From a virus, in IMG/VR virus record IMGVR_UViG_3300025133_000555, positions 1 to 25,217 of that record: a stretch of DNA of 25,217 nucleotides, one strand, 5' to 3'. The position numbers and the translations under genes were made by a program. The notes under the pieces are model-generated. The model was not told the DNA's origin. It saw only the letters and a list, made by a program, of their open reading frames with translations, and searched no databases. Below, piece by piece: positions 3,764-16,226 of the stretch (its first letter is position 1; every line of letters begins with the position of its first letter).

Positions 3764-4213
3764 CTATTGCACGAGAGGAGCAGCAGCAATTGAATTAACA
3801 GCTTCTGCGGCACCGCTTGATCTGCTGAGTAATGCCCAACCAGAAGCAGTCCAAATACAAGTCACTGTTTCACCAATGTTGGTCAGAGTAAAAGTATTAT
3901 AACTCCCAGCTGTTGTAGCTGGAGTTACTTGAAACGCGTTTGTAGCATGTAAGCTTACAAAGTATTTAAGCTGCCCAACAGTTGTACCATTAGCCAATGT
4001 AACAGCCATTGTGTCACCATCTGACGTAACAAGAGATACTGGTACAGTTATACTAGCAGCTCCAGCAGCAGTAATGGCTTCTGTGCCTAAAGACAAAGCT
4101 GCGGCACCTGAGATGCTTGGCGCTGTCAATGTTGAGTTTGTGAGATCTAAATCTCTATCTACTGTTTCTAACAGTTTTTCCATTCGGCCTAAGCCCATTC
4201 TTCGATTTCCCAT
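3764..4213 (-). CDS. Probable virion decoration or head-associated protein, 149 aa
   Basis: The product begins MGNRRMGLGRMEKLLETVDR, a short basic helix, followed by about 120 residues of Ala/Thr/Gly/Ser-rich sequence of the kind seen in beta-structured virion proteins. The final part (FTLTNIGETVTCIWTASGWA) ends in a small aromatic strand pattern resembling the end of the fibre proteins upstream. It has no enzymatic motif. It is transcribed just after the major capsid gene and has its own terminator, which fits an abundant head decoration or similar structural protein, but this is inference. The start has a GGAG leader. Its upstream region contains the three-way-junction RNA candidate at 4248-4319. 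Confidence 0.6.
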   Translation of the reverse strand: MGNRRMGLGRMEKLLETVDRDLDLTNSTLTAPSISGAAALSLGTEAITAAGAASITVPVSLVTSDGDTMAVTLANGTTVGQLKYFVSLHATNAFQVTPATTAGSYNTFTLTNIGETVTCIWTASGWALLSRSSGAAEAVNSIAAAPLVQ

Positions 4214-4235
4214 AATATTTCTCCTTTTTTATAAT
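4207..4235 (+). promoter_or_regulatory. Possible sigma70-type promoter on the opposite strand for the RNA candidate
   Basis: A perfect -10 box TATAAT lies at 4230-4235 on the plus strand, with TTCCCA (four of six matches to TTGACA) 17 bases upstream. A start near 4242 would begin just before the structured element. Such a box can arise by chance in AT-rich leader sequence. Confidence 0.3.
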
Positions 4236-4247
4236 TATGGACCCGTT

Positions 4248-4319
4248 TTCTGGTCAGTTTCTACCAGCCCCATTCCGGTAGAGACAGTGAGCAGGGGCCT
4301 CGCTCAAAGGAGACCAGAA
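4248..4319. ncRNA. Candidate structured RNA: three-way junction with complementary hairpin loops
   Basis: Plus-strand pairings: closing stem TTCTGGTC (4248-4255) with GACCAGAA (4312-4319), 8 bp. Hairpin one: TCTACC (4260-4265) with GGTAGA (4277-4282), extendable to 9 bp with one G-U. Hairpin two: TGAGC (4288-4292) with GCTCA (4302-4306). Loop one holds GCCCC (4267-4271) and loop two holds GGGGC (4294-4298), which can form a 5-bp kissing contact. On the minus strand this would be the 5' leader of the 149-aa gene; there the extended stem has a C-A mismatch. On the plus strand a TATAAT box precedes it and a hairpin at 4356-4379 could end it. I do not recognise it as a known class, and the strand is undecided. 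Confidence 0.5.
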
Positions 4320-4343
4320 TTCAAGTCGTAGTAATTAGTATCT

Positions 4344-4380
4344 AGAAATAGAAAAGCCCCAAATCCGAAGATAAGGGGCA
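4344..4380 (-). terminator. Terminator of the major capsid gene, cUUCGg loop, possibly bidirectional
   Basis: The transcribed strand has GCCCC-TTATCTTCGGATTT-GGGGC then TTTTCTATTT. The inner ATC-TTCG-GAT forms the very stable cUUCGg tetraloop, showing the minus strand is the main orientation. In reverse the stem is followed by ATTTCATTTT, so it could also stop a plus-strand transcript. The T-tract contains CTATTTC, a one-mismatch form of the promoter-like motif. Confidence 0.85.
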
Positions 4381-4416: not shown

Positions 4417-6231
4417 CTAAGCTCCAGATTCGCCAAGGAGACCACGAATGATAACAAGACCGTACATGTCAGGACGTACCATCTTCTTAGCATAACGAGT
4501 CATTACACCTTTACGAGGAACAAAGTCTTCTGGTCCGAAGATAGTTGGAGTTACTTGTAGAGGCACATAAGGTGCATATACGTAACCTGATTCTAAGAAA
4601 GAACCACCTTTACGTCCAACGAGCATTAAGTTACGAGGGAAGTAAGGGTCAACGATAACGTCGAACTTGCGAGAAAGACTTCCGGCCTTAACAGCACCAA
4701 TGTCACCTTTATCAGCGTCAGCAGTTACGTTAGCACGGAATCCAGAGGTGAACTCAAGGATATTAGCACCTTCAGGAGAACAAACTACATAGTTAGCTCC
4801 GCCACGAAGTGTCTTTCTGTGGATTTGAGCAGAAACGTCATTGATAGTTTCAATAAGAGTCTCATACCATTCAGAAACAGTTCCGGTAAAGTCAGGAGCA
4901 GCAGAAGTTGCACCAATTTCAGTACCAGTTTCTCTGTTTACAAATAGTCCGGGAGAACGAGCCCAGTAGTAAGTGGCAGCAGTTGCGCCATTTACAAGGT
5001 CAGCAAGGATCTCACGGTCAATCTCAAGAGCAATTTGCTCAGAAAGAATAGAAGTCAATTCAACTTCAGCATCAATATTATGGTAAGCATTCAAATCTTG
5101 ACCCAACTCAGGTGTCCATTTAGCTTTAAGCTTCTTGGTCTGGGCTGTGATCGCAGTTGAATCAACACTGATGTCGATTTCTGGGATTTCTGCTAACCCT
5201 TCAAGTGCAAATAAATCACCAACAATGGCACCAACCGAGGTTGCGCCAACGTTGTCATATTGATCCTTGATAGGAACTGTAATATGAGCAGCGTTGGTGG
5301 CGTTAGCCAAAGCAGCTTGAACAGCGACAGCGGCTCCGCCGGTCTCAATTGAGAAGATAAAACGAACTGATTCGCCTTGACCATTCAAAGACTCAGCAGT
5401 AGTAACCTTATCAGTCAAACGACGGATTTGCTTCATTGTAGCTGAATTAGAAACAGCAGTAATATCTGTAGCTAAGTCAGTAACGTCAAACTGGAATGCA
5501 GATAGATTGTCATAATCAACATCACCAGTGGAACAAGTAAATGCTGAGGTTTTAAGATCTACAACGACAATTTTATAAGTACTATCATCAATAGTTAAAA
5601 GATCAGGATCAAACTTAATGATTTTCTTGTTTGCGTCCGTTACAGCACCATCTAGATCAAAGACGAGTGCGCGACCGTCACCAGTAGCAACAGCAGCAAT
5701 AGAGCCGCTTGGAGATGCATAAGCATAACCTACAGATCCTCCACGACCGGGACCACTAAAATCTTCTTTTCCACCAGCATCAACAAGATTAACACCATCA
5801 ATGATTCCTGAACCTAACTTATCAGTACCATAGATAGAACCTTCAGCAGCATTACCCATACGAGGCATTACAGCAGTAGTTCCACCAGCATCTGGTGAGA
5901 ATTTGAAATCTAAGAAGAAGATCAAGCCAGATGGCAAAGACATCGGTTGAACACTTACAAGATCATTTGCAATAAGTCCGGCGAATACACGACGAACGAT
6001 AGGGAAAGCAACAGCAGCAAAACCTTCAACGTCACCAGCAGCCATGCTAGAAGACTCTCGAAGAAGTTCTTTTGCTTGGTTTTCCAAAAGACGAGCCATT
6101 GTCGCCTTTTTATGTTGGGTCTCAAGACCCTCAAGAAGTCCAGTTGAGGACCACTTGTTTAGAAGTGCACTACCTTCCGCTTTCATATCACGGTTGACGA
6201 TGCCTTCTGTTAATTTTTCAATTATAGACAT
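4417..6231 (-). CDS. 23: Major capsid protein (gp23-like)
   Basis: The 604-residue product is the HK97-fold shell protein. The N-terminus (ALLNKWSSTGLLEG at about 22-35, then ARLLENQ) follows T4 gp23 (LLNKWKPLLEGEGL, IFENQ). The mature domain opens with VRRVFAGLIANDLVSVQPM, matching T4 MVRRAIPNLIAFDICGVQPM. The C-terminus has GYVYAPYVPLQVTP, then EDFVPRKGVMTRYAKK, matching T4 IYYAPYVAL...FQPVMGFKTRY. A gp21 cleavage site of the (L/I)-x-E type is visible at LLRE/SSS (after residue 59), close to the T4 cut after residue 65. It exceeds T4 gp23 (521 aa), mainly through extra sequence at about residues 150-330, probably an insertion domain. It follows the scaffold gene closely and ends in a strong terminator. 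Confidence 0.95.
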   Translation of the reverse strand: MSIIEKLTEGIVNRDMKAEGSALLNKWSSTGLLEGLETQHKKATMARLLENQAKELLRESSSMAAGDVEGFAAVAFPIVRRVFAGLIANDLVSVQPMSLPSGLIFFLDFKFSPDAGGTTAVMPRMGNAAEGSIYGTDKLGSGIIDGVNLVDAGGKEDFSGPGRGGSVGYAYASPSGSIAAVATGDGRALVFDLDGAVTDANKKIIKFDPDLLTIDDSTYKIVVVDLKTSAFTCSTGDVDYDNLSAFQFDVTDLATDITAVSNSATMKQIRRLTDKVTTAESLNGQGESVRFIFSIETGGAAVAVQAALANATNAAHITVPIKDQYDNVGATSVGAIVGDLFALEGLAEIPEIDISVDSTAITAQTKKLKAKWTPELGQDLNAYHNIDAEVELTSILSEQIALEIDREILADLVNGATAATYYWARSPGLFVNRETGTEIGATSAAPDFTGTVSEWYETLIETINDVSAQIHRKTLRGGANYVVCSPEGANILEFTSGFRANVTADADKGDIGAVKAGSLSRKFDVIVDPYFPRNLMLVGRKGGSFLESGYVYAPYVPLQVTPTIFGPEDFVPRKGVMTRYAKKMVRPDMYGLVIIRGLLGESGA

Positions 6232-11648: not shown

Positions 11649-14600
11649 CTAATATGTTATCAAAATTCTTGATAAGTGACCTGTCCAATTTTTATGGGCT
11701 GTAACTTTTACTACGTAGTATTGATTATTTCTTATTTGCTTTTCTTGGAGTTGTATACCTATTGCTGCTCCACTTCCGTCAACAGTTTGATCTAAACCAG
11801 AACCGCCACCGCTGTAAATTCCAATGCCATCCGTTGTTGGTTGCACACCAGCAGAATAAGGTTTTACAACATCTCCCCAAGCAGTAGAAGTATCATCATC
11901 GCCTGTGAAATTGTTGTCATATGGAATTTTTAATTCAACATTTATGTTCTTATTGGCACCTAAGTAACCAGTGTAAAAAGCTCCTGATTTGGATATGATA
12001 TTTGCATCTCCATATAAAGTAACTGTAAAAGTTGGCTTTGCCTGACCTGTTGTATTTTGGAAATATCGATAAAATGATCTAGTTGCATTTGTTAAACTTG
12101 AATAGTTTGGATTACCGGCTGGAGCCTGTAGAGAACCTCCTTGACCAGAGTTTCTTGTATCTCCAAGGTTTCCAATTTTTAAAGGAGAGATAGCGTAACC
12201 GTTTATGGTCACCACCCCATCACCATGAGCATTAGCAGCATTCATGTGAGTTTGTGAATTCCAAGCATTCGCAGAGGAGGTGGTGTCTGTTTGATTTGCA
12301 TAGTTTCCGGAAACAATTCTGTATGTTTCTGTATTAAAGTATTCGTTTGTTGTGCTATTGGTACTTCCAATAGAGCCTGAATAAACCATAAAGCTAGTTT
12401 TACTTTGTGTTGAGCTAGTTAAGTCTGATTTCAAAGGATGATGTATTGCAGAGTTCACAGAAATATCATATTTTGTAAAAGCAGCAGATCCATACGCTCC
12501 TGAAATAGATGTAAGAGAATCAAACCTAACTGTTCCTGTTATTTCAATAGAGTCCTGCTCACAATCAGTTGAATTGTCAAGATTTGGTAATCCGGTCTGT
12601 GAAACACCAGAATTAAACGTTGAGACCCCATCTCCTGTGACTTTGATATTAGATATCGAACAATTTGTGGTTGTTGGAAATTGTAGAGCATTTACTTCAT
12701 TAGAATAGATATTTCTATAGACATTAGCAGCAGTATAAGAATATGAAGCAGATGGTCTAGAAGCAAAGTATTTAATTCCAGATTGATAATAAATATCTAA
12801 GTGATCAAAATTAGAACAAGAAACAAAAGTTGCCGCTAGGGCATTAGAATCTGTATCTATAACCCATTGTACATAATTTGTATTTGTTGTTGAACCACCA
12901 ATAATGTGTTTTATTCTTGCATAGTTCCATCCCAAGTTTTGATCGGCTGGGCCGACATAATACGAACCGGTTCTATAAGTTTTTGTATAATCTGGTATAT
13001 TATCCACAGTCGTACTGAAACTGACTGATGAGACAATAAAACCACTGGTGTTTCCATTAGAGCTTGAAATCTCGTTTAAAGAAGAGATCAGATTGATTGT
13101 ATGTACATCTATCCCATTCACTTCTAAAGTCAAAGAACCCGTATATGCATCTTTGAAGGAGTTGGCTGGATAATTCTTACCATTGCTATTAACATCTTCG
13201 TTTAGAGTCCCTACTAAATTTTGTTTAGTTGAGAAAACACCCCTTCTATCTCCACTAACCGTATAGGATCCATTTGAATTAATATCACTTAAAGAAATAG
13301 CAGATCCTGTTGCATTGCTGTAATTTGTTACACCATTTGCAGCTCCAAAGGACAGTTTAGAAGGAACACCAGTATTGTTCGCATCAATGTCATCTAGTGC
13401 CGCCGTTTCAGTAGCAGTGTTCGATGTTGCTCCAACACTGAATGAAAGTTCCGAAAGGTATCCACTCCAGCTTTCGTCTGCTAGGATCTTAACCATCACA
13501 TTTTCACCGATAGCGATAGATTCTGTTCCAAATGTTACAAAATGAGCATTGTTGCCAGAATCAACATCATTCGCCGCTCCTGCTATCAAAGCCCCATTAT
13601 TATCTGATGTGCTTCCATATACAAAGTTTTGTGAAATGTCCATCCAACCTGTGGCACCGGGCACCTTTACGAAAAAATGAAGGTTTGCCGCTGCGAGTGA
13701 TGAATTGTTATATGTAGTTGAACTTTTTGTAGAGACGATCTTCATGTCCCTCTTTGTTACTCCGCTTGAGTTTGAAACAACACGATAAAATGTTCTTGTT
13801 CCAATTATTCCACTATAGTTTGGGTTACCACTAGCAATATTATCAAGAGCAGCTATATTCCCTCCATGGGGTATGTCTCCATCAACAGGGCTATAAAGTC
13901 TTTGATTATGAAAAAGCAAACCATCTTGGTGCCCATCTACATTGGAACCTGTCATGTGTGTTTGAGAATTCCAATACGAAGAGACGTTTGTTGTCGCAGC
14001 TTGGTCGTTATACGAGCTAGATACTTTTCTATATGTCTCGTCATGAAACTTTTCTTCCCAAACGGAACTGGCCAATGTTCTGTTATCAATGAGAAAACCA
14101 TTACCAGTTGTAGCGCCACCCTGATTTGAAATTGTATTCTTTAACGGATGAGTCACAGTTGTATTGCTAGTGATAGAGCCACTAAATAAGGTTGAGCCAT
14201 TAAAATCCAAAGAGGCGGTAACACCTAAGACTTTTGTATTGTTTTCCGATGCTCCGATGTCAGCGACGGATTGTGCGGAAGGTGTTGCACTATTTGCAAC
14301 AGTAAAAGAAATAGGTGTTCCGCTAGCAGCATATATATTTCGATATAAATTATTAATATCGACCTTATATTTTGCTGTGGCATCTGTGTTGTACTTAATA
14401 CCTGAAAGGTATTTGGTACCGACCAATGCTATCTCCTCTATTCTCCCATTTGAGACAGATAGGTCATTGACTGCACCTGATGGATCGTTGACCCATTCGA
14501 TATAGTTTGTAGTGTTGTCTATGGTTAAACTGTGAATTACTCTCGCATAGTTCCAACCAACTTTTTGATCGCCAGCATCAACCTTGAATTTGGCAGTCCT

Positions 14601-15050
14601 ATGTTTAAAAATATACCACTCTGCGTTGTTTCCATCATAGGAAGAAGCTGTGAGGGACACATTAATAAAACCTGATTGACTTGTAAGAGAACTAGCAGAT
14701 CCCGTAAAGGGGTTCCCGCTCCCTGCCAACCCAGATAACGCAACTGAATGTATTACTGTTCCGTTTAATTCCAGCTTCAGAGTACCTTCATTTGCATTCC
14801 CAAACGCATCATTTGAATAAGCTAAGTACCCATTCGCAACAGATTCAACCGTGTCATGATTGATATACCCTGTTATGTCTTGTGTTCCATCGTATATTCC
14901 CAATCTTATGTTAGAGCCAGATGTTGCAGCTGAATAGCTGCCTGATCTACCAACAGCATTAAAGCCAGCTGTGGTACCGGAGGAGGTATAATCTGTTATT
15001 GGATAAGACGATCCAAATGATAGCTTTGCTGTAATACCATCTGTGATATC
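11649..15050 (-). repeat. Tandem duplication of a ~550-residue module inside the 1525-aa protein
   Basis: Copy one spans about 15050-13410 and copy two about 13390-11649. GWNYAR occurs near 14550 and 12925, and WNSQTHM near 13965 and 12255, both offset by roughly 1.6-1.7 kb. The copies share ordered motifs but have diverged strongly between them, so the duplication is old. Confidence 0.85.
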
Positions 15051-16226
15051 TTCGTTGATAGAATTTACTGCTGGGGCTGGGGATGGTGCCAATATTTTAA
15101 GTACTTCGTTAAAGCGATCAATTGGTACCCCGATTAGAGTCTCTGCTGTTAAATCGGTATAAAGACCGTCGGCATAGTCACCGTCTTCAGCAGCACCTAA
15201 TTTGCTTTGAGTTGCTGTGCCGCCAGAAGATGAAGTGAGAACAATATTGTTGTTTGTATCTAAAGCAAGAAAACTCGATGTGGTAGCAGTACCAGCAGAC
15301 AAGCCTGTTAAATGCATCGTAGAGCCAGACACTGTTCCACCTATTTGCAGATTAGAAGAGCCAGATATAGTCGTGACACCAGAGATTGCACCAGCATTCG
15401 TGATGCCTCCTGTCTGGAGGTTCAATGATGTCCCAGTGATTGCAACAAAAGAACCAGCACCCCCTGATACTGTTGTAGCACCAGCAATTGCGCCGGCGTT
15501 TGTTATACCACCGGCTTGAAGATTTAACGAAGTACCTGTTAATGTTGTGTAGTTCCCGACAGTTCCAGATATTGTTGTCCCACCAGCAATAGAGCCGGCG
15601 TTTGTTATGCCACCATTCTGTAGTGCTAAGGAGGTCCCAGCAAGGGTTGTGAATGTACCAGCAGCACCACTTACTGTACTGGAGAAAGTACCAGTTGTAG
15701 CACCGGCAATGGAGCCGGCATTTGTTACTCCTCCGTTTTGTAAAGCTAAAGAAGTACCAGCAAGGGTTGTGAATGTACCAGCACCACCTGATACAGTTGA
15801 TGCAAAGGTCCCAGCAGCACCAGTGATCATTGTTGATCCTGAGACGATGGCGCTAGAAATGGTATTCGTCATTGTCGCATTGATACCAGCATAACTAAGA
15901 GCACTATTTCCTAAAGAAGAAGAAACAGCACCAGCTGTTTTCATTGAACCAGTAAATTGGTGGACATCATCGGCTGTGTCACCAAACTTTGAAGACCCAG
16001 TAACTGATAGATTTGTTACATTTTTACTAGTAACATCTAAATTAAAAGCATTGGCATTTATAGTACCCGATACATTCAGTGTACCAGTTAGCGCAACCGT
16101 TGATGATGCAACACTATATGTAAAATTAGAAGAACCGGTGAATGCCTGATCCTTCTTAATTTGAATAGAATCGTTAATACCACCAGCATTGCTTCCACTA
16201 ATATATGCCCAGCCAAATTCACCCAT
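11649..16226 (-). CDS. Giant repeat-containing fibre/adhesin-like virion protein, 1525 aa
   Basis: The largest gene in the window. The N-terminal 70 residues (MGEFGWAYISGSNAGGINDS...) are followed by Ala/Gly/Thr repeats at about 140-285 of the form GTSLxLQxGGITNAGxIAG. Residues about 390-1525 contain two tandem copies of a ~550-residue module. Matching landmarks are KLSFG, GWNYAR, SGIKY, YRNIY, HPLK, ETYR, WNSQTHM, GNPNYS, and ESWSGYL / KNWTGHL. No enzymatic motif or signal peptide is seen. Such giant beta-rich proteins usually form long fibres or baseplate-linked adhesins. The gene lies in the fibre block between gp21 and gp22 and follows the 154-aa gene by 12 bases. Function in host recognition is inference; the coding call is secure. 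Confidence 0.85.
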   Translation of the reverse strand: MGEFGWAYISGSNAGGINDSIQIKKDQAFTGSSNFTYSVASSTVALTGTLNVSGTINANAFNLDVTSKNVTNLSVTGSSKFGDTADDVHQFTGSMKTAGAVSSSLGNSALSYAGINATMTNTISSAIVSGSTMITGAAGTFASTVSGGAGTFTTLAGTSLALQNGGVTNAGSIAGATTGTFSSTVSGAAGTFTTLAGTSLALQNGGITNAGSIAGGTTISGTVGNYTTLTGTSLNLQAGGITNAGAIAGATTVSGGAGSFVAITGTSLNLQTGGITNAGAISGVTTISGSSNLQIGGTVSGSTMHLTGLSAGTATTSSFLALDTNNNIVLTSSSGGTATQSKLGAAEDGDYADGLYTDLTAETLIGVPIDRFNEVLKILAPSPAPAVNSINEDITDGITAKLSFGSSYPITDYTSSGTTAGFNAVGRSGSYSAATSGSNIRLGIYDGTQDITGYINHDTVESVANGYLAYSNDAFGNANEGTLKLELNGTVIHSVALSGLAGSGNPFTGSASSLTSQSGFINVSLTASSYDGNNAEWYIFKHRTAKFKVDAGDQKVGWNYARVIHSLTIDNTTNYIEWVNDPSGAVNDLSVSNGRIEEIALVGTKYLSGIKYNTDATAKYKVDINNLYRNIYAASGTPISFTVANSATPSAQSVADIGASENNTKVLGVTASLDFNGSTLFSGSITSNTTVTHPLKNTISNQGGATTGNGFLIDNRTLASSVWEEKFHDETYRKVSSSYNDQAATTNVSSYWNSQTHMTGSNVDGHQDGLLFHNQRLYSPVDGDIPHGGNIAALDNIASGNPNYSGIIGTRTFYRVVSNSSGVTKRDMKIVSTKSSTTYNNSSLAAANLHFFVKVPGATGWMDISQNFVYGSTSDNNGALIAGAANDVDSGNNAHFVTFGTESIAIGENVMVKILADESWSGYLSELSFSVGATSNTATETAALDDIDANNTGVPSKLSFGAANGVTNYSNATGSAISLSDINSNGSYTVSGDRRGVFSTKQNLVGTLNEDVNSNGKNYPANSFKDAYTGSLTLEVNGIDVHTINLISSLNEISSSNGNTSGFIVSSVSFSTTVDNIPDYTKTYRTGSYYVGPADQNLGWNYARIKHIIGGSTTNTNYVQWVIDTDSNALAATFVSCSNFDHLDIYYQSGIKYFASRPSASYSYTAANVYRNIYSNEVNALQFPTTTNCSISNIKVTGDGVSTFNSGVSQTGLPNLDNSTDCEQDSIEITGTVRFDSLTSISGAYGSAAFTKYDISVNSAIHHPLKSDLTSSTQSKTSFMVYSGSIGSTNSTTNEYFNTETYRIVSGNYANQTDTTSSANAWNSQTHMNAANAHGDGVVTINGYAISPLKIGNLGDTRNSGQGGSLQAPAGNPNYSSLTNATRSFYRYFQNTTGQAKPTFTVTLYGDANIISKSGAFYTGYLGANKNINVELKIPYDNNFTGDDDTSTAWGDVVKPYSAGVQPTTDGIGIYSGGGSGLDQTVDGSGAAIGIQLQEKQIRNNQYYVVKVTAHKNWTGHLSRILITY
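15385..15810 (-). repeat. Short tandem coding repeats, 34- and 40-residue periods
   Basis: The block around CCGGCRTTTGTTAT recurs at about 15391, 15493, 15595 and 15715, giving periods of 102, 102 and 120 bases. It encodes GTSLxLQxGGITNAGxIAG units. The last two units share near-identical DNA (CAAGGGTTGTGAATGTACCA in both), implying recent duplication or conversion. Confidence 0.85.

Follow-up and report, generated by a model that had tools for sequence, protein, structure and literature searches.

A covarying three-way-junction RNA with kissing loops upstream of a virion protein gene in phages related to T4

The gap downstream of the major capsid gene gp23 in a T4-like phage contig encodes a three-way-junction RNA, and covariation among homologues establishes its three helices (P1, P2 and P3), its kissing pairs and the strand on which it acts. 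The RNA family shows strong covariation and has no Rfam entry; well over 100 contigs of T4-related viruses carry it, at a fixed position beside the major capsid gene. We give about an even chance (roughly 0.5) to the reading that it acts in cis on translation, as the 5' leader of a late phage mRNA; the main rivals are an mRNA stability element and a riboswitch. The leader offers a concrete, testable case of a phage structural operon controlled at the RNA level.

Locus, architecture and family

The window analysed here (25,217 nt) is a 25-kb IMG/VR contig of a T4-like phage with its head genes on the minus strand, on which the parts of the leader locus also lie. The gp23-like major capsid protein gene (4417-6231; PHROG major head protein, E 1.7e-71) is directly upstream of the leader and ends at 4417; the next gene (3764-4213) encodes a 149-aa protein (MGNRRMGLGRMEKL...), and the gap between them is 203 nt. 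In minus-strand order the gap holds a terminator (4379-4352), the sequence ACTAATTA (4339-4332), the three-way junction, AAGGAG (4226-4221) and the ATG at 4213. Elsewhere in the window a 1525-aa ORF at 11649-16226 contains repeated 'TSLALQNGGITNAGSIAG'-like segments and probably encodes a fibre or surface protein.

The sequence-only reading had described a closing stem, TTCTGGTC/GACCAGAA, at 4248-4255 and 4312-4319, and all of its parts were found in place. On the minus strand the inner P1 helix pairs UUCUGGUC (4312-4319) with GACCAGAA (4248-4255). The two hairpins it listed are P3 (4258-4284) and P2 (4288-4306, UGAGC-GAGGCCCCU-GCUCA), and their loops carry the complementary segments GGGGC (4271-4267) and GCCCC (4298-4294), respectively. 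The element is bigger than first noted: P1 has an outer helix of six pairs, GACUUG (4322-4327) with CGGGUC (4240-4245), and a promoter-like motif lies upstream at 4332-4339. The entire covariance-model match spans 4234-4327 (cmsearch, 47.8 bits, E 2.7e-8), a score that is not by itself independent since the window sequence is included in the model. RNAfold predicted the three-way junction on both strands of the window sequence, with fold z-scores of -2.7 (minus) and -3.8 (plus); 3 of 200 and 0 of 200 dinucleotide shuffles, respectively, were equally stable. A fold that beats shuffles for one sequence proves little by itself.

Homologues came from protein searches with gp23 (80 loci) and with the 149-aa protein (a further 10), and from DNA pattern searches. 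In 14 of the loci from the protein searches, the gap downstream of gp23 proved to hold the same arrangement of elements in a different sequence. We built a covariance model on 45 sequences, and it matched at least 149 elements in IMG/VR contigs, with at least 111 distinct sequences, and gp23 was directly upstream in all 135 listed matches with enough upstream sequence. Ten long contigs had one copy each, chance-level scores aside. Besides subtype A there is a second subtype, B, to which the window belongs; it comprises 20 distinct sequences and has a longer inner P1.

The remark of the sequence-only reading that no known class matches was borne out. Rfam 15 gave no match in the window at gathering thresholds, and relaxed thresholds yielded just weak matches under gathering scores in the window and nine homologous loci. 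DNA searches of cultured phages with the window, subtype-A and L091-type elements detected no homologue, and bacterial genomes searched with the subtype-A pattern gave no match. The nearest annotated gp23 relatives (Flavobacterium immuto phages, Microcystis Mel-JY01 and an uncultured phage) had no covariance-model match; in the Flavobacterium immuto phages and Mel-JY01 the gaps downstream of gp23 are short. Among open-licence PMC papers we found no earlier description of this leader.

Covariation and the functional strand

In the 45-sequence alignment, 95.7% of the structure cells are paired. Double-changed cells number 139, as against 40.5 in shuffled alignments, and the covariation score is 0.420 compared with 0.173, a level reached by none of 500 shuffles; these shuffles do not preserve the relatedness of the sequences. 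Both sides have changed in 14 pairs across the 45 sequences, and when the partners are slid by one to three columns pairing falls to 31-48%. By helix, 97.0% of the cells are paired in outer P1 and 99.4% in P2, with both-side changes in three of the four P2 pairs and six of the eight P3 pairs. Within the window's subtype, all 120 inner P1 pairs are intact (120/120) across 20 distinct sequences, in nine pair variants. Most positions of P3 show two to six types of pair. The kissing loops occur in four versions among the listed matches: GCCAC/GUGGC (97), GCCCC/GGGGC (30), GCGGC/GCCGC (13-14) and GCCGC/GCGGC (8); the search pattern left free the two NN positions that distinguish them. The loop-loop contact comprises six to seven pairs in 9-nt loops. 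The variety of P3 pair types together with four kissing versions is hard to obtain without selection. Absence of compensatory changes in homologues was what the earlier reading had named as grounds for giving up the structure; such changes are present, and both the junction and its kissing loops are confirmed by them.

Which strand is functional can be read from wobble pairs. On the minus strand, G-U cells outnumber A-C cells by 148 to 5 over P1 (41 G-U, 0 A-C), P2 (3 and 0), P3 (25 and 3), the kissing pairs (65 and 2) and the 3' hairpin (14 and 0). Of the 65 kissing G-U cells, 45 come from a single position that is always G-U, and the two A-C cells among the kissing pairs probably stem from misaligned window-type rows, so the strand argument is carried by the P1, P3 and hairpin counts. 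The G-U excess therefore identifies the functional RNA as that of the minus (late mRNA) strand, and the suggestion that the element serves there as the 5' leader of the 149-aa gene is upheld by this asymmetry and by the promoter-like motif upstream.

The other proposal of the sequence-only reading, a separate plus-strand transcript of about 140 nt antisense to the operon, had in its favor sigma-70-like hexamers on that strand and the slightly better plus-strand fold of the window sequence. It is now highly improbable: the 148:5 ratio favors the minus strand, and a late-promoter-like motif precedes the leader on the minus strand in 148 of 148 listed loci. The putative plus-strand promoter, TTCCCA-N17-TATAAT, arises from the ATGGGAA start codon and Shine-Dalgarno (SD) region read in reverse complement. 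What had been taken as its downstream terminator (4352-4379) is gp23's own intrinsic terminator, GCCCC...GGGGC TTTT, recognized by sequence and fold, whose T-run is a minus-strand feature; a comparable hairpin and T-run is also found 3' of gp23 in relatives. On the wobble asymmetry and the strand of the promoter-like motif we rejected a plus-strand small RNA.

Transcription start, Shine-Dalgarno pairing and proposed function

The conserved motif upstream of the leader, ACTAATTA (4332-4339), belongs to the CTAWTTA class. A CTA-type motif is present in all 148 listed matches with upstream sequence, in 143 of them 4-5 nt ahead of the first position of the model. In relatives, ACTAHTTA occurs 303 times on the coding and 13 times on the opposite strand, where shuffled sequences lead one to expect 47 and 72. 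In the window its minus-strand copies are at 410, 3060, 3131, 3533, 3695, 4339, 7377, 10546, 16733, 18238 and 22477; all 11 are on the coding strand and most lie shortly ahead of a gene. Known late promoters are the T4-type TATAAATA and NATAAATA of cyanomyoviruses (PMC2984593). A stretch of Pelagibacter phage HTVC008M has NATAAATA instead, 11:0 by strand. From its distribution, ACTAHTTA is likely a late promoter unlike T4's TATAAATA. By likeness to T4-type late promoters the mRNA would start near the first pairs of P1, and since the motif keeps a near-fixed distance from the first helix, the start is expected within a few nucleotides of it.

This placement bears on the stability reading, in which a junction at the 5' end would leave ribonucleases no free end to attack and so keep the late virion mRNA stable, CUCCU being just a part of the fold. 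With P1 only 4-5 nt after the promoter-like motif there would be almost no free 5' end, and 5'-terminal stems are known mRNA stabilisers. T4 late mRNAs are nuclease targets (PMC3014915), which also speaks for it. A plain stem would be enough for that purpose, however, leaving over the fixed junction sequence, the kissing loops and a CUCCU facing the SD; we regard the stability element as the less probable reading, with perhaps one chance in several.

The junction strand between P1 and P2 (J12, CUCCU(UU), 4306-4312) contains CUCCU, the complement of the gene's SD, AAGGAG (4221-4226), which in alternative folds is its possible partner. CTCCT is kept in 50 of 50 listed loci, in a scan that did not select for it, and in 13 of the 14 gp23-derived loci; the exception (L090) has CUUCG in J12 and can still wobble-pair with its own SD. 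Except for this CUCCU, subtypes A and B have little junction sequence in common. In nested folding models, which ignore the kissing loops, the SD-free and J12:SD folds of subtype A differ by a mean of -0.5 +/- 1.9 kcal/mol, with 81 of 94 sequences within 3, whereas the SD-free fold is favored in the window's subtype (ddG mean +5.6 +/- 5.1 kcal/mol). Because it is favored on average, a switch in the window's subtype would need a pseudoknot or would be ON by default. As SDs are nearly invariant, the CUCCU:SD complementarity can hardly covary; the sixth base of J12 covaries weakly with the SD, a signal confounded by ancestry. J12 may instead be conserved for the junction fold itself. A start-codon hairpin, CCAUAAU/AUUAUGG, which can form in the window and in roughly half the relatives, was rejected as barely above permuted partners (8/500).

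As a translational leader, the RNA would work as follows. Transcription would begin at a late promoter between the gp23 terminator and the next gene, a few nucleotides from P1, and the RNA would fold into the P1-P2-P3 junction with the P2 loop paired to the P3 loop. A closed P1 and the kissing-loop fold would leave the SD free, and pairing of J12 CUCCU with AAGGAG would hide it, so that a factor favoring either fold could set the output of the 149-aa virion protein.

If that factor were a small metabolite bound by the compact kissing-loop junction, which would free or hide the SD, the leader would be a riboswitch. The conserved junction nucleotides and loops of subtype A are aptamer-like and its SD alternatives near-isoenergetic. 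Against this, the window's subtype does not retain the J23 and J31 nucleotides, and the only genes that the element precedes are virion genes of a single class; we consider a riboswitch unlikely.

Subtype A also carries a perfect palindrome of 10-16 nt just 3' of P1 (for example L006, ~2054-2067), in the versions GTTATTGCAATAAC, GTTATCGATAAC, GGTTACGTAACC and GGTTAACGTTAACC, whose centre stays self-complementary throughout; it is not present in the window. Changes from G-C to G-U within it suggest an RNA hairpin. A trans-acting or dimeric RNA, in which intermolecular loop-loop pairing and this self-complementary hairpin would multimerise the leader, would draw on the palindrome and on the complementarity of loops 1 and 2. 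The covariation is compatible with intra- and intermolecular kissing alike, though, and intramolecular kissing accounts for it equally well; the palindrome is missing from the window's subtype, and an SD and ATG follow downstream in the elements read. Multimers therefore seem a distant prospect.

The encoded protein and comparison with known RNAs

The leader does not follow the gp23 phylogeny. On the gp23 tree it is scattered, with 11 changes (mean 13.1 after shuffling), of which supported branches require at least eight. It goes instead with the start of the downstream protein: the N-terminus is MG[NS]RR or MGKRL in 14 of 14 leader loci, a type that no locus lacking the leader has, and across at least 116 leaders this basic type (MGNRR.G.KRL) nearly always forms the first residues. 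The window protein (3764-4213) and that of locus L085 (4001-4432) have a C-terminal domain in common and are 78% identical overall; L085 begins with MGTKRVGLAR, and its record has no covariance-model match. The leader therefore goes with the N-terminus and not with the C-terminal domain, and comparison of the proteins indicates domain exchange, one C-terminal domain standing behind differing N-termini and differing leaders. The leader RNA thus moves among capsid backgrounds along with a short N-terminal peptide while the remaining protein is exchanged. Because leader and N-terminus are physically adjacent, co-inheritance alone suffices to explain their linkage. The 149-aa protein matched no family in Pfam or PHROGs, and its AlphaFold model (pLDDT 39) was too poor for use.

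Since leader and N-terminus travel together, the likeliest factor acting on a translational leader would be the protein encoded just downstream, by way of the arginine-rich N-terminus. In its full form, a new class of autogenous operator in which the N-terminus binds the kissing-loop junction at the 5' end and flips the CUCCU:SD switch, output is tied to capsid assembly and each leader class at the locus matches its own N-terminus, this is a tentative proposal that we hold doubtful.

The purine riboswitch, too, is a three-way junction in which the loops of P2 and P3 pair with each other. The likeness to our covarying junction is one of architecture only: here six to seven pairs form within 9-nt loops, the junction is another one and no purine genes are beside it, and the Rfam purine core had no match in the window or homologous loci. 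In translational riboswitches of the preQ1-II type an aptamer strand pairs with the SD, as is proposed here for a core strand; their architecture differs from that of the new leader, which has no Rfam match. The packaging RNA (pRNA) of phi29 is phage-encoded, as is the new leader, and is also a three-way junction with complementary loops, but it is a motor component whose loops pair between molecules, whereas the new RNA is an mRNA leader; the Rfam pRNA model had no match in the window or homologous loci. Among T4-like phages, the manA and wcaG motifs are structured RNAs of marine members, and manA likewise lies in 5' UTRs (PMC2864571); unlike the new leader, which lacks an Rfam match, they are associated with metabolic or light-related genes and have different structures. 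The leader pseudoknot of gene 32 in T4, T2 and RB69 is an autogenous translational operator, and perhaps the sole viral pseudoknot in translational autoregulation according to a T4 review (PMC3014915). Both are structured 5' leaders upstream of a ribosome-binding site in genes of the T4 lineage, with control read by a protein, which here is only proposed. The gene 32 leader is an H-type pseudoknot on the mRNA of an ssDNA-binding protein rather than of a late virion protein, and has neither three-way junction nor kissing loops; the 5' end of the new leader forms a three-way junction with kissing loops and not an H-type pseudoknot.

Another class of leader was observed between gp23 and an MG[ST]KR gene in five loci (L041, L047, L054, L056 and L063), with a conserved GACATGATTATAAA(T)GGAGGG before the ATG. 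Several of the five have two additional hairpins whose stems differ in sequence. Judged from these sequences, the GACATGATTATAAA(T)GGAGGG leader may be another structured RNA, linked to a second type of N-terminus.
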